Part shown: piece by piece, positions 10,868 to 18,831 of the stretch
How the letters are laid out: each line of letters begins with the position of its first letter
Position numbering within the stretch: the stretch's first letter is position 1
NCBI RefSeq assembly: GCF_011799805.1
Contig: NZ_WXUB01000001.1
Coordinates: 1,364,001 to 1,428,000, forward strand
Origin: Maribellus sediminis
GTDB taxonomy: Bacteria; Bacteroidota; Bacteroidia; Bacteroidales; Prolixibacteraceae
Length of the DNA stretch: 64,000 nucleotides
Direction: 5' to 3'
Notes under the pieces: generated by a model
What the model was told of the DNA's origin: nothing
What the model saw: the letters and a program-made list of their open reading frames with translations, nothing else
Database searches by the model: none
Translations under genes and position numbers: made by a program

Positions 10868-10894
10868 GAACCAGCAGAGGACTTAACATTCGGT

Positions 10895-11120
10895 GTCGTC
10901 CCTCCGGGACTTATGTTTGTGTTGGCATGATGTTTTACCAATCTGTCGTCCCTAATGGGACTTTTAACCTGCAGAAACTACTGAATCGATTTTAATCCCG
11001 GAGGGATGAAATATCTGTAGCCCCGCCTTTTAAGGCGGGGTATTGGGTGCAGCAAAAAAAGGCGGTGCAAGCAGTTGGTTGTTCGGGCTTGTTGGTGGTT
11101 TGCACCGCAATTATGGTGAG
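10895..11120 (+). repeat. Dispersed multi-hairpin repeat A, copy 1
   Basis: About 226 bases made of successive palindromes: GTCGTCCCTCCGGGAC, GTCCCTAATGGGAC, TTAATCCCGGAGGGATGAAA, CCCCGCCTTTTAAGGCGGGG, and an outer pair GCGGTGCAA/TTGCACCGC. Other copies are at 18505-18760, 21534-21788 and 22672-22895. It has no preserved reading frame. Confidence 0.85.
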
Positions 11121-11201
11121 ATTGCTTCTCCCGGGTGCCCGGGATCGCAATGACTGCATAAGTGTATAATATCCGGCAGCCGGCGGAAGGCGAAGCAATC
11201 T
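11119..11201. repeat. MITE-like repeat E, copy 1 (AGATTGCTTC ends)
   Basis: The 83-base element starts AGATTGCTTC and ends with its inverse GAAGCAATCT. It contains CCCGGGTGCCCGGG and the core CCGGCAGCCGGCGG. Similar elements with different centres lie at 18758-18831, 23215-23388 and 28883-28918. The ends resemble the widespread GCGAAGCAATC intergenic repeats known from many bacteria. Confidence 0.7.
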
Positions 11202-11302: not shown

Positions 11303-11645
11303 ACTCCCCATGGGAATTACCTTTCTCCCCGGGGTAACCATAGCTATTCCCTAAAAAAAATAGTTCCGATAACAGAGGAAACAGCTGTCGTGGACAAGGA
11401 AATAATGGCTGTGGACAAGTCCGGCATCGTTCCGGACAAGGAAATCATAGACATTCCCTAAGAAATAATGTCTCTGGCATAGGAAATAACTATGATGGAC
11501 AAGGAAATAATGCCTGTGGACAAGTCCGGCATCGTACCGGATAAGGAAATTATAGCTATTTCCTAAGAAATAATGTTGCTGGCATAGGAAATATCGATGA
11601 TGGACAAGGAAATAATCCCTCCGGATAAGGAAATTATCCTTCTCC
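11303..11645. repeat. Minisatellite: 21-bp units in a 105-bp higher-order repeat
   Basis: From 11391 the sequence divides exactly into 21-base units based on TGGACAAGGAAATAATGGCTG. Five successive variant units make a 105-base block; block starts at 11391, 11496 and 11601 show two full copies and a partial third. Degenerate units can be followed upstream to about 11303. Read in the frame of the ATG at 11495, each unit gives a heptapeptide like DKEIxxx, but two units per block carry TAA or TAG at the second codon of the unit. The array is therefore not an open coding region. Confidence 0.85.
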
Positions 11646-11957
11646 CCCGATGCTGCAAGCCTGTTCCCCGCTTACGAAAGCCGCGGAAACACTGTCTTTG
11701 TTATCATATTCAGGTGTTTAGCTGCAAAACATCCTGTGTTTCTGTTGAACAAAACATTTTTATTTCTATCTTCGGGAAAACTAAAAATTAATACCTTACT
11801 AATGAAAATGCTCCCTCCTATAAAATTCAGAAAAGATGGTATGCCCCATAATTTGGTTCCATTATCCAAAGTGATAAAAGTGAAATAATACAACTTGCTG
11901 GATTTCATGTATAGTAACGACAAATTTTTAAAAAATTTAGAACAAAATAACATAATT

Positions 11958-13628
11958 ATGATACATACTATAAGGTTAGGCAATTATAAGGCATTTAAAA
12001 GTGGCGAAATAAAAATTAAACCTATAACTATTCTACTTGGCACTAACAGTGCAGGGAAAAGTAGCTTAATACAATTATTGTTAATGATTACTCAAACATT
12101 CAGTAGTAGAAAAAATAGACAAAATATTCTTCAACTCAATGGTGATTTGGTAAAATTAGGAGAGAACAAAAATATTTTTCATAATAAAAAAACGAGTTCT
12201 AACATACGACTTTGTTTTGATATTTCCAATATAGAATATAAACGAGTTATTGAAAATGTCAATGAAAGAATATTTGAATTATTTTATACGCTAGATAAAA
12301 TTTATTCCCTTATTACCATTAAAGAAGACGATAACAGAATCATAAGAAGAGCTAGAGACATTCGTTACCAATTTACACCAAGTTTTGAAGAAATAATGGA
12401 TGTTGGTAATGTTTTCTCAAAGCTCAGTGGGCTAAAGAGAAAAATTAATATGGCCGCCAAAAACTTACCTTCAAAAGAATTTGAAAAAATAATGGATATA
12501 TATTTTCGGAATATGTGGAGATATGATGATTCGAATATTTATTCATCAGCTGAGAAGAAAATTATTGTGGATTTCGCTCCCTATAAACACGCTTCTCAGT
12601 TCGCAAACACTTTATCCAATATTGATTTTAAAAATTTGGAAATTGAGTATGTCATAAAATACAATGAAAAAAATAGAACTACTGAGCTAGAGGGATTTAC
12701 AATAAATGCAAAAAATCAAGTAATACTGAATTATTACTATAAAAATGTTCGAAGAGGAAAACATCATGTATTGCAAAGTGATGTGTTTGATAGTGAGTTG
12801 CTTGAAAAATACTCAAGTAAATTCGGAAACACTATAGATTTAACAAACCTGGAATTGGCAAGTCGTATGGTCGTAAGACGAAAAAGAGATAATTTTTTCA
12901 TTGAATTTCTTCTACAACTTATTGAACAAACAATAAGTCCTATAAAAGATAATTTCAACCATAGAAATATTAACTATATAAATCCATTAAGAGCGTACCC
13001 AAGACGTTATTATTTTCAAGATGAGGTTATAAATTCCTATTCTGTTAGCACAGTGGACTCAATACAATTAATTGAGCTTTTTAGAGAACGAACAGATATT
13101 AAAAGGAAGGTAAACTCCTGGATGAAGAAATTTAACATTAACGTAGACATTGACCAATTAGAAGAAGTAATTCACAAAATTAGAGTTCATCATAGTGGTT
13201 TAAGTTTAGATATCACAGATGTAGGCTTTGGCATATCACAAGTAATGCCAATTATTGCACAAAGTTATTTAGCTAGGAATAATTCAATTACTTTGATAGA
13301 ACAGCCAGAAATTCACTTACATCCAAAGATGCAAGCAGAACTAGCCGATTTATTTATTGATACATGTAAGGACGATAATATTACAAGAAACTTTATTATC
13401 GAAACACACAGTGAATATTTATTAAAAAGACTTAGAAGGAGGATATCTGATGGGAGCATCGACGCCTCGGATGTCGCCATTTACTTTATACATCCAAAAA
13501 ATGATTCAAGAAATCACGCAATAATTGAGAATGTAGAAATAAGCGATACTGGTGAGTTTGAGTGGCCAAGCGATTTTTATGCAGATGATTTAAAGGATAC
13601 TATTGAATTTCTAAAGAATCAGATATAA
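11958..13628 (+). CDS. AAA/ABC-type ATPase with DUF3696-like C-terminus, first gene of a candidate defence module
   Basis: The 556-residue ATPase has Walker A GTNSAGKSS (28-36), an ABC-signature-like DVGFGISQ (421-428), Walker B LIEQPEIHLHP (Glu448, Glu451) and a switch histidine in ETHSEYLL (His484). The insert of about 380 residues between Walker A and the signature is helical and charged. The end (GEFEWPSDFYADD) fits the DUF3696 branch of the AAA_15/OLD-like ATPases. Such ATPases act as sensors or motors in many antiphage systems, paired with a separate effector. I chose the ATG at 11958; the one at 11895 adds 21 residues outside the domain. The DNA is much more AT-rich than its neighbours, suggesting transfer. 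The next gene starts 2 bases after the stop. Confidence 0.85.
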   Translation: MIHTIRLGNYKAFKSGEIKIKPITILLGTNSAGKSSLIQLLLMITQTFSSRKNRQNILQLNGDLVKLGENKNIFHNKKTSSNIRLCFDISNIEYKRVIENVNERIFELFYTLDKIYSLITIKEDDNRIIRRARDIRYQFTPSFEEIMDVGNVFSKLSGLKRKINMAAKNLPSKEFEKIMDIYFRNMWRYDDSNIYSSAEKKIIVDFAPYKHASQFANTLSNIDFKNLEIEYVIKYNEKNRTTELEGFTINAKNQVILNYYYKNVRRGKHHVLQSDVFDSELLEKYSSKFGNTIDLTNLELASRMVVRRKRDNFFIEFLLQLIEQTISPIKDNFNHRNINYINPLRAYPRRYYFQDEVINSYSVSTVDSIQLIELFRERTDIKRKVNSWMKKFNINVDIDQLEEVIHKIRVHHSGLSLDITDVGFGISQVMPIIAQSYLARNNSITLIEQPEIHLHPKMQAELADLFIDTCKDDNITRNFIIETHSEYLLKRLRRRISDGSIDASDVAIYFIHPKNDSRNHAIIENVEISDTGEFEWPSDFYADDLKDTIEFLKNQI

Positions 13629-13630
13629 CT

Positions 13631-14071
13631 ATGGATTATACAGTTTGTTCAAAGGTACTAGAAACTGCAAGTAAAGAGTTAAAGTACGCATATGATTTAC
13701 TATGGCACTTTATTCAAGAAAATCCTAATAGAGTTGTAATTAATGATAAAATACTTGAGGAGTACATTAAATATGCCAATGAATCAGGTACAATTCGTGA
13801 ATGGATTAAAGGAATGGATTTTAAGAAATACTGGAAACCAGTTGCTATTAATGATTTTGAAAATCTATTTATTGATACCTGCAGAAGAACTCATGATAAA
13901 AGATTAATTGTATGTGAAAAGGAGGATTATAATCCTATTAATTATAATGGAATAACTGTTTTTAATAAAGATGAAGCGATTTCAGAATTACAACCAGCAG
14001 GGATCGTAATTAATCAAAGTGGCAATAATAACCAAGCTGCAACGGGCAATAATTCTTCAAATATTAAGTAA
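13631..14071 (+). CDS. Small soluble protein with C-terminal curlin-like motif, ATPase partner
   Basis: I do not recognise the family of this 146-residue protein. Residues 1-122 are mixed helix and strand, with acidic residues spread as in small nucleases (Asp39, Glu43, Glu44, Asp82, Asp89, Asp99). The segment RLIVCEKEDYNPINYNGITVF resembles the last strands of PIN-like folds, but the usual N-terminal Asp strand is missing, so a nuclease role is only a guess. The tail changes character: residues 127-145 read INQSGNNNQAATGNNSSNI, with the QxGxxNxA pattern of curlin amyloid repeats. Nearly the same sequence begins the next protein. The gene sits between the ATPase and the membrane protein, with 2- and 1-base gaps. 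Confidence 0.72.
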   Translation: MDYTVCSKVLETASKELKYAYDLLWHFIQENPNRVVINDKILEEYIKYANESGTIREWIKGMDFKKYWKPVAINDFENLFIDTCRRTHDKRLIVCEKEDYNPINYNGITVFNKDEAISELQPAGIVINQSGNNNQAATGNNSSNIK

Positions 14072-14072
14072 T

Positions 14073-14300
14073 ATGGCAACAATTAATCAGACTGGAAATG
14101 ATAACCAAGCATCAACAGGAGATAACTCTCCTAATATTAGAGGTAACAGAAATAAAATAGGAATTCCTGATAAAAGAAGCATTGGTTGGTTTACAAGTGG
14201 TGTTATTCTTCCAATATTGGTTGGATTAATACTTGAGATTACTAAACAAGGAAAAGTAAGTGAATTATTATACTATATAATTAGGATTTTTAGCGAATGA
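14073..14300 (+). CDS. 75-residue single-pass membrane protein with N-terminal curlin-like motif, putative effector
   Basis: Residues 4-22 read INQTGNDNQASTGDNSPNI, 14 of 19 identical to the tail of the preceding protein. Next come a short basic linker (RGNRNKIGIPDKRS) and one predicted membrane helix (about 37-57, WFTSGVILPILVGLILEI). A short amphipathic end (YYIIRIFSE) closes the protein. A small membrane protein with a motif matching that of its neighbour resembles effector/partner pairs joined by amyloid signalling motifs in bacterial and fungal immunity, where membrane disruption kills the cell. This is inference. The ATG at 14073 starts one base after the upstream stop, so translation is probably coupled. 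No homologue is recalled. Confidence 0.7.
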   Translation: MATINQTGNDNQASTGDNSPNIRGNRNKIGIPDKRSIGWFTSGVILPILVGLILEITKQGKVSELLYYIIRIFSE

Positions 14301-14347: not shown

Positions 14348-14414
14348 CCGCTCGCGCCTCCCGATCCGTCAGCTGACGGATGGGATGCAATCGGTGTGTC
14401 TCCGAAAGGATTGA
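14348..14414 (+). repeat. Direct repeat C, copy 1 (left of CPBP gene)
   Basis: A 67-base unit starting CCGCTCGCGCCTCCCGATCC, containing the palindrome ATCCGTCAGCTGACGGAT and ending GTCTCCGAAAGGATTGA. Its near-identical partner at 15308-15374 is in the same orientation, so the pair brackets the CPBP protease gene. Confidence 0.85.
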
Positions 14415-14453
14415 ATCTTTTCACGAACAAGATCATGAAAAAAAAACTAACCA

Positions 14454-15307: not shown

Positions 15308-15374
15308 CCGCTCGCGCCTCCCGATCCGTCAGCTGACGGATGGGATGTAATCGGTGTGTCTCCGAAAGGATTGA
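15308..15374 (+). repeat. Direct repeat C, copy 2 (right of CPBP gene)
   Basis: Differs from copy 1 by a single base (GTAA instead of GCAA after GGAT). The distance between the copies is 960 bases, the size of the enclosed gene with its flanks. Confidence 0.85.
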
Positions 15375-15443
15375 AATATAAATTTCAGCCTGTGGCTGAT
15401 TTTTGATTCGCGCCAGCCAAGGTCTAATGTTCAGATATAGCAT

Positions 15444-18500: not shown

Positions 18501-18504
18501 CGAT

Positions 18505-18760
18505 GTCGTCCCGCTGGGACTTATGTTTGTAATCACATTCTGTTATACCAACCTGCCGTCCCTAACGGGACTTTTAATCTGCAGAAACTACTGAATCGAT
18601 TTTAATCCCGGAGGGATGAAATGTGTTTAGCCTCCCGACGTTCGCAAACTCAGTCGGGACAGGCCGTCCTTTTAAGGCGGGGTAGTAAGTGCAGCAAAAA
18701 AGCTGTGCAGGCAATTGGTTGTTCGGGCTGATCGGTGTTTTGCACCGCAATTGTGGTGAG
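18505..18760 (+). repeat. Dispersed multi-hairpin repeat A, copy 2
   Basis: Same order of hairpins as copy 1 but with a 33-base insertion-like segment (TCCCGACGTTCGCAAACTCA onward) between the GGAGGGATGAAA and AAGGCGGGG parts. The same segment is found in copy 3. Confidence 0.85.
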
Positions 18761-18831
18761 CTTGTTTTTCCCGAGTGCCCGGGATCGCAATTGCCACACG
18801 ATTTGTCAACTGCCGAAAAACGAAGCAATCT
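18758..18831. repeat. MITE-like repeat E, copy 2
   Basis: Starts with a decayed end (GAGCTTGTTTTTCCCGAG), keeps TGCCCGGGATCGCAAT and ends CGAAGCAATCT. A separate imperfect hairpin (GGGCACTTACTGAAAA/TTTTCGGTAAGCGCCC) follows at 18844-18875, just before the cupin gene. Confidence 0.55.

Follow-up and report, generated by a model that had tools for sequence, protein, structure and literature searches.

A candidate three-gene killing system in Maribellus sediminis: an ABC-type ATPase with a predicted PIN-fold partner and a membrane protein, the latter two sharing a short motif

What could three genes have in common that encode an ATPase, a small soluble protein and an even smaller membrane protein and follow each other almost without a gap? 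The question is raised by an operon in a 64,000-nucleotide stretch of the Maribellus sediminis genome (contig NZ_WXUB01000001.1, positions 1,364,001 to 1,428,000; hereafter the window), whose products we call the ATPase, the partner (146 residues) and the effector (75 residues). The preliminary description of this DNA read the trio as a module of ATPase, partner and membrane protein, possibly for antiphage defence or killing; this architecture stands, while a short motif shared by the partner and the effector had gone unnoticed. The reading that we favor, with a probability of roughly one half, is a conditional killing system of three components that most likely acts against phage, in which the ATPase holds a pseudo-PIN adaptor and the membrane killer is recruited through the motif.

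The shared motif was detected in a repeat search as a 59-nucleotide direct repeat (80% identity), with one copy at the end of the second gene and the other at the start of the third (Table 1). The class-1 expression Q-x-G-x2-N-Q-x3-G-x2-S-x-N is found in 16 of the 16 class-1 proteins, eight partners and eight effectors. The tail and head of the window pair score 78, compared with 31 for the next-best of 179 adjacent same-strand gene pairs (mean 17.1, standard deviation 5.7), these controls being drawn from 464 kb of the same genome with crude longest-frame gene calls. Class-1 cognate pairs score 58-78 and a Desulfobacula pair 63, while cross-class combinations give 13-27; for each of these seven pairs (class-1 cognate pairs and Desulfobacula), 0 out of 5000 shuffles reach the score. 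Only three of six class-1 tails score highest with their cognate head, so the matching follows the class rather than the strain.

Table 1. Coordinates of the operon and of its motif copies in the window.
Feature	Position	Strand	Remark
ATPase gene, 556 amino acids	11958..13628	+	ABC/SMC-type AAA_15-AAA_21; proposed sensor and holder
Partner gene, 146 amino acids	13631..14071	+	Predicted PIN-fold core, residues 1-124, without first catalytic acid, then disordered tail
Class-1 motif, tail copy, residues 127-146 of the partner, INQSGNNNQAATGNNSSNIK	14009..14068	+	Repeat D13
Single-pass membrane protein gene, 75 amino acids	14073..14300	+	Proposed effector
Class-1 motif, head copy, residues 4-23 of the effector, INQTGNDNQASTGDNSPNIR	14082..14141	+	Repeat D13
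Predicted transmembrane segment, residues 36-54 of the effector	14178..14234	+	Highest Kyte-Doolittle window

The comparison rests on nine relatives of the partner obtained by protein search and on an alignment search that gave 19 hits at E ≤0.01 among 764 candidates; including the window, the partner set amounts to 20 distinct proteins (P0030 and P0027 represent a single gene read from two starts, and P0037 is a 100-residue fragment). For the effector, six relatives were found by search, and further ones were read from the loci of Winogradskyella ludwigii (P0023), Desulfobacula (P0026) and Leptospira (P0028). The pairs P0004-P0017, P0005-P0019, P0007-P0021 and P0008-P0022 were inferred from contigs of equal number and length, and since P0004 (98% identical) may belong to the window's own lineage, the number of independent class-1 pairs is about five.

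A second motif class occupies the same place. The stretch [NDR]-S-[ITV]-[VIG]-A-x2-[GHN]-[SA]-x-I, or in a shorter form S-[ITV]-x-A-x3-[SA]-x-I, is present in 14 of 14 proteins, namely the other 12 partners and both class-2 effectors read. The partners P0010-P0012 and P0029 are 49-51% identical to the class-1 partner P0002, yet they carry the class-2 tail of a group that is only 22-26% identical, and the tail has therefore been exchanged. Neighbouring genes thus carry matching motifs, and the tails have been exchanged from one system to another. Between tail and head in the window, second codon positions agree in 18 of 20 cases and third positions in 12 of 20, and between the W. ludwigii tail and its first head copy the values are 15/19 and 7/19, so that the motif has been kept for the protein. 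Different codons are used for 6 of 14 shared motif residues in the window and for 6 of 12 in W. ludwigii.

We propose that the three proteins act in the following order. By analogy to its family and to PARIS, an oligomer of the ATPase would bind and restrain the partner, and a phage or stress trigger would then alter the ATPase and thereby free or cluster the partner. The latter, a predicted PIN fold without the first acid, would act as an adaptor that carries the motif in its disordered C-terminal tail. The motif match itself is seen in the sequences; through it, the clustered tails would template the head motif of the effector, the contact being homotypic and probably a cross-beta (amyloid-like) stacking of tail and head motifs. 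The recruited membrane protein would finally oligomerise and break the membrane, and the infected cell would stop. In relatives, the signal would be passed without the motif, through a partner with a PD-(D/E)XK-like nuclease as its C-terminal part.

The amyloid-like character of the contact is the more delicate element of this proposal. The presence of the same motif on both sides, the two swapping classes, the W. ludwigii effector with its near second copy of the motif in tandem, and a faint curlin signal (Pfam Curlin_rpt, sub-threshold in two of eight effectors, best E 0.027) point to cross-beta stacking of the kind known from NLR amyloid signalling. Tentatively, and at somewhat less than even odds, we describe the operon as an NLR-independent bacterial amyloid signalosome, in which an ABC-type ATPase frees a dead-enzyme adaptor whose tail seeds amyloid on a membrane killer of 60-90 residues, the motif cassettes being exchanged as matched pairs. 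The same circuit could also be built on an ordinary small protein contact, either beta-strand addition or a shared docking site on the ATPase. This would agree with the shortness of the motif (about 16-20 residues), with the disorder of the tail in the structure model, with the absence of fine pair specificity within class 1, and with the use of two dissimilar motif classes, which peptide docking would allow as well. However, the same motif on both sides suits homotypic stacking better than docking, the Q-x-G-x2-N core resembles the curlin repeat, and the tandem near-copy in W. ludwigii has its counterpart in the effector-side repeats that the excerpts of PMC8086366 report for BASS4 and HET-s. 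We consider an ordinary contact possible, although rather unlikely.

The structure model of the partner, built from 19 sequences (a model from 10 sequences was set aside as poor, with a predicted local distance difference test score of 44.1), matches PIN folds, VapC chains being among the matches, and its core is thus predicted to be a PIN fold. In single-protein scans, neither the partner nor the effector matches a Pfam, PADLOC or NCBIfam family, the sole PHROG row having an E of 0.98; the partner gives no match to DUF4435/Toprim or to any other family (Pfam at E 1, PADLOC at E 10), and its model has no match in BFVD at E 0.001. The best Kyte-Doolittle mean over 19 residues of the partner is 0.38. 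Three of 19 partners match the YafO toxin family of Pfam, with a best E of 0.086. In PIN domains, the first acid of the catalytic set is expected after strand 1. Of the 17 partner rows that have residues at positions 4-8, behind strand 1, 16 lack both D and E in this stretch and one, P0031, has E7. Acidic residues are kept at positions 114 and 115 (19/19 rows) and 22 (17/18). As the fold lacks its usual first catalytic acid, the partner is probably an adaptor and not a ribonuclease (RNase).

This argument bears directly on the alternative that the partner is an active RNase toxin restrained by the ATPase, with the membrane protein as its anchor or antitoxin. PIN folds are commonly RNases, acidic residues remain at the three positions just mentioned, and a group of stand-alone partners of viral ATPase relatives (described below) shares D8, D101 and D119, which we take to be the pattern of an active PIN domain. 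Nevertheless, none of these seven stand-alone partners matches a PIN family in Pfam, and the profile comparison that was to connect them with the core gave nothing (E 0.055; 89 of 300 decoys were as good), so that their homology to it was rejected. Together with the missing acid at positions 4-8 and the lack of any match of the membrane protein to an antitoxin family in Pfam, this makes an active RNase distinctly unlikely, and we retain the adaptor role of the partner.

The ATPase matches only AAA_15 and AAA_21 above the Pfam cut-offs, with neither DUF3696 nor Toprim among its matches there. Of the earlier label, an OLD/DUF3696-like ATPase, the ATPase thus holds and the DUF3696 assignment does not, even though many plasmid relatives bear a DUF3696 annotation. 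The search against defence models that had been suggested places the protein close to ATPases of known or candidate antiphage systems, with PADLOC E-values of 1.9e-54 (NsnB), 9e-50 (PDC-M55A), 8.2e-48 (HEC-03B) and 5.2e-31 (AriA). The Walker A residues, IEQPEIHLHP and ETHS are invariant in the four-row ATPase alignment (A3).

The relatives of the ATPase show what else can follow it. One is found in a P2 prophage record, and IMG/VR, when searched with the ATPase alignment, yielded 26 viral-contig loci, the gene behind the ATPase being read in 25 of them (L029 was omitted, as its match coordinates and E-value are those of L028). At 14 of the 25, the partner has 332-335 residues (at L018 it is cut by the contig end) and a PD-(D/E)XK-like C-terminal half; D212 and E226 are invariant in the 13 rows of its alignment (A6: 12 of these loci and P0014), and P0013 matches Pfam PDDEXK_4 below the cut-off (E 0.08). 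At the 13 nuclease-type loci that do not run off the contig, no motif-type membrane gene is found among frames of at least 40 residues starting within 150 nucleotides. Six loci encode the stand-alone partners of 175-204 residues, which together with that of L008 have invariant D8, D101 and D119 (A7), and three have other partner types. The remaining two, L010 of Desulfobacula and L023 of Leptospira noguchii, encode a motif-tailed partner followed by a membrane protein of 60-69 residues with the same motif class, so the combination of ATPase, motif-tailed partner and small membrane gene recurs in viral contigs. Still other partners stand behind ATPase relatives at L024 (4746-5273, 175 residues) and L026 (5512-6381, 289 residues), and the ATPase chassis therefore accepts several partner types. 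The 3' part of L023 is 99.4% identical to Leptospira phage LE1; as a separate observation, the annotation of the matching phage record places a His-Xaa-Ser (hxs) system at L023 6634-9207, behind the operon.

The N-terminal part of the nuclease-type partners may be similar end to end to the core of the motif-tailed ones. A deep-profile comparison gave E 0.021, with one of 300 shuffled profiles as good, and pairwise searches of the core against ORF333-type partners reach no significance, with E 0.10 in BLASTP and 0.088 and 0.54 in hhalign, so the similarity is suggestive only. The comparison of the A6 and A7 profiles gave E 0.092.

The effector has one hydrophobic stretch, with a best Kyte-Doolittle mean over 19 residues of 2.02, as the earlier description of an ATPase, a small partner and a membrane effector would have it. 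The membrane segment of six of eight effectors matches Pfam Fst_toxin below the cut-off, with a best E of 0.02 (P0023 reaches 15.3 of 36 bits), the window's own protein being unmatched. In W. ludwigii (L004) the same three genes occur in the same order, so the operon is more than a chance cluster and the conserved order anticipated earlier is found. Minus-strand genes beside that operon, at L004 7460-9684, appear on visual inspection to encode a replication protein and a helix-turn-helix protein of the excisionase type, so a mobile element may have its boundary here.

In the window, the gaps between the genes are two and one nucleotides, in agreement with the tight packing first described, and an alternative TTG start of the ATPase gene lies at 11895. 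The AT-richness noted earlier is evident from the G+C contents of 28.5% (12001-13000) and 30.8% (13001-14000), the two lowest among the 64 1-kb blocks of the window. So is the repeat-rich surrounding: dispersed repeats are present in the zone, and a minisatellite-like array of a 105-nucleotide unit in 2.2 copies lies upstream at 11391-11620. A 68-nucleotide element with an 18-nucleotide palindrome occurs in two copies, 99% identical, one behind the operon (14348-14415) and one behind the CAAX protease gene (15308-15375); a 76-base query holding it has 15 matches in the genome, mostly partial. Imperfect repeats of 132 and 96 nucleotides, 86-87% identical, flank the module at 10891-11151 and 18501-18791, about 7.6 kb apart.

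The six flanking genes scanned encode SnoaL-like, DPP IV, CAAX protease, aspartyl protease, TPR and cupin proteins. Because none of these six is a defence gene by Pfam, the defence island suggested for this place is not demonstrated. DPP IV is found in all 14 same-genus loci fetched, and the ATPase, the partner gene and the CAAX protease, aspartyl protease, TPR and cupin genes have no match at E 1e-8 in these 14 stretches; as the genes downstream of DPP IV are all unmatched, a clean empty site cannot be demonstrated.

The three-gene module is rare and patchy. None of the 24 other genomes of the genus has the ATPase at E 1e-20, and it was found in 2 of 41 genomes (its own and a partial match of 32%) and in 1 of 397 in a second draw (a partial match of 37%). 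The partner profile, run against 395, 395 and 334 genomes of the phylum, class and order (draws that may overlap), returned its own genome each time and one doubtful hit (G314, E 5.1e-5, inside an 869-residue frame, in one of the 395-genome draws); against 393 genomes of one other family, a group without a positive control, it returned none. A pattern-limited search of the genome contig collection gave one operon locus. In the viral contig collection, no relative was found with A1, P0011 or P0035 as queries, the Desulfobacula partner recovered only its own contig, and the motif DNA patterns matched nothing. Class-2 partners were found neither in plasmids (three queries) nor in phages (one query), the class-1 partners not having been queried there; the Desulfobacula locus has no match in phages, and the Leptospira operon has no near match in E. 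coli genomes.

The operon might also be a non-defence stress or membrane module that spread with mobile DNA, in line with the lack of defence genes among the six flanking genes scanned and with the annotation of all named relatives as "hypothetical". The absence of the ATPase from the 24 other genomes of the genus, the occurrence of its relatives in viral contigs, their resemblance to defence ATPases and the low G+C content make this very unlikely. A functionless stretch that arose by recent tandem duplication of DNA, as the 59-nucleotide repeat and the codons of the Desulfobacula pair might suggest, is highly improbable, since six class-1 pairs have it, since class 2 has one of different sequence, and since part of the shared residues use different codons in the window and in W. 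ludwigii.

A number of observations weigh against the proposed killing system. Both motif expressions were composed after inspecting the sequences, neither class reaches a curated family cut-off, and class-2 effectors were read at only two loci. The Leptospira pair is weak, its score of 29 being reached by 206 of 5000 shuffles; in the Desulfobacula pair the same codon encodes 11 of the 13 residues in common, and the DNA may have been copied recently there; and, judged from the sequences, fine pair specificity is absent within class 1. Foldseek finds nothing in the PDB for the partner model at E ≤0.001, and its list is headed by two rows of an archaeal RuvB-like helicase (E 0.013 and 0.014), PIN chains following from 0.017; three of 19 partners (A5) match Pfam DUF7043, with a best E of 1.9e-4, and Curlin is not among the 16 Pfam families listed for these 19. 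The effector has no Pfam match even at E 10, the homology of the core to nuclease-type partners is suggestive only, and the scanned flanks are free of defence genes. The antiphage, amyloid-forming and toxic roles are proposals, and the operon is a candidate.

How does such a system relate to those already described? In NLR-associated bacterial amyloid signalling (Dyrka et al. 2020, as presented in the excerpts of PMC7889193, PMC8086366 and PMC12261475), NLR and Bell proteins are connected by the BASS1-10 motifs. As there, the genes are adjacent, the receptor-side and membrane-effector-side proteins share one short motif, and several motif classes exist. Unlike there, no NLR takes part: at E 1, Pfam finds neither NB-ARC nor NACHT in the three proteins, and an ABC-type ATPase with a predicted pseudo-PIN partner stands in their place, the comparison being one of architecture and not of BASS1-10 profiles. 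The orientation is also reversed: here the motif stands at the C-terminus of the signalling-side protein and at the N-terminus of the effector, whereas the NLR has it N-terminally and Bell C-terminally. Moreover, the motif pair occurs outside the filamentous actinobacteria and cyanobacteria named in the excerpts of PMC7889193.

In PARIS, AriA holds AriB and releases it on a viral trigger (PMC11455837). Here too an AAA_15/AAA_21 ATPase precedes a partner, which by analogy it would hold until triggered; the partner, in contrast to the Toprim tRNase AriB, is of predicted PIN fold and not DUF4435/Toprim, and a third, membrane-protein gene is present. The best PADLOC match of the ATPase is NsnB, which we take to be the ATPase of Menshen (NsnABC). 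Menshen has DUF262 and OLD parts according to the excerpt of PMC10952713, whereas Pfam finds no DUF262 among the nine proteins scanned here. The ORF555-ORF333 pair of P2-EC5 (prophage P2, E. coli ECOR5) has an ATPase 38.6% identical over 65% of the query with a partner directly behind it, but ORF333, of 333 residues, ends in a PD-(D/E)XK-like part and lacks the motif; the 3,023-base record annotates nothing behind ORF333 and stops 110 bases after it. Curli (CsgA/CsgB), which is secreted, is approached in the Q-x-G-x2-N core, with sub-threshold Pfam matches in two of eight effectors. It differs in having five repeats, as stated in the excerpt of PMC12261475, against one or two motif copies in intracellular proteins here. 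By the features tested, the operon is not a member of the PARIS, Menshen or NLR-BASS systems; by analogy, its layout suggests that it works as a PARIS-type ATPase coupled to a motif pair of the BASS type would.

The bacterial amyloid signalling described in the titles and excerpts at hand is tied to NLRs, and none is present among the three proteins; among the matches listed in the open literature (titles and abstract starts), no paper describes an NLR-independent bacterial amyloid signalling system or a trio of ATPase, PIN and membrane proteins. The layout of the operon resembles, by analogy, the prion-like signalling of fungal and animal immunity, with a different kind of sensor. A 2021 review asks, in its excerpt, whether NLR-independent signalling amyloids exist in fungi and bacteria (PMC7889193), and the operon offers a concrete three-gene candidate for that question, with two motif classes. 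If the proposal is true, one ATPase chassis would change its killer, using in one branch a nuclease within the partner polypeptide and in another a membrane peptide connected through a short motif.
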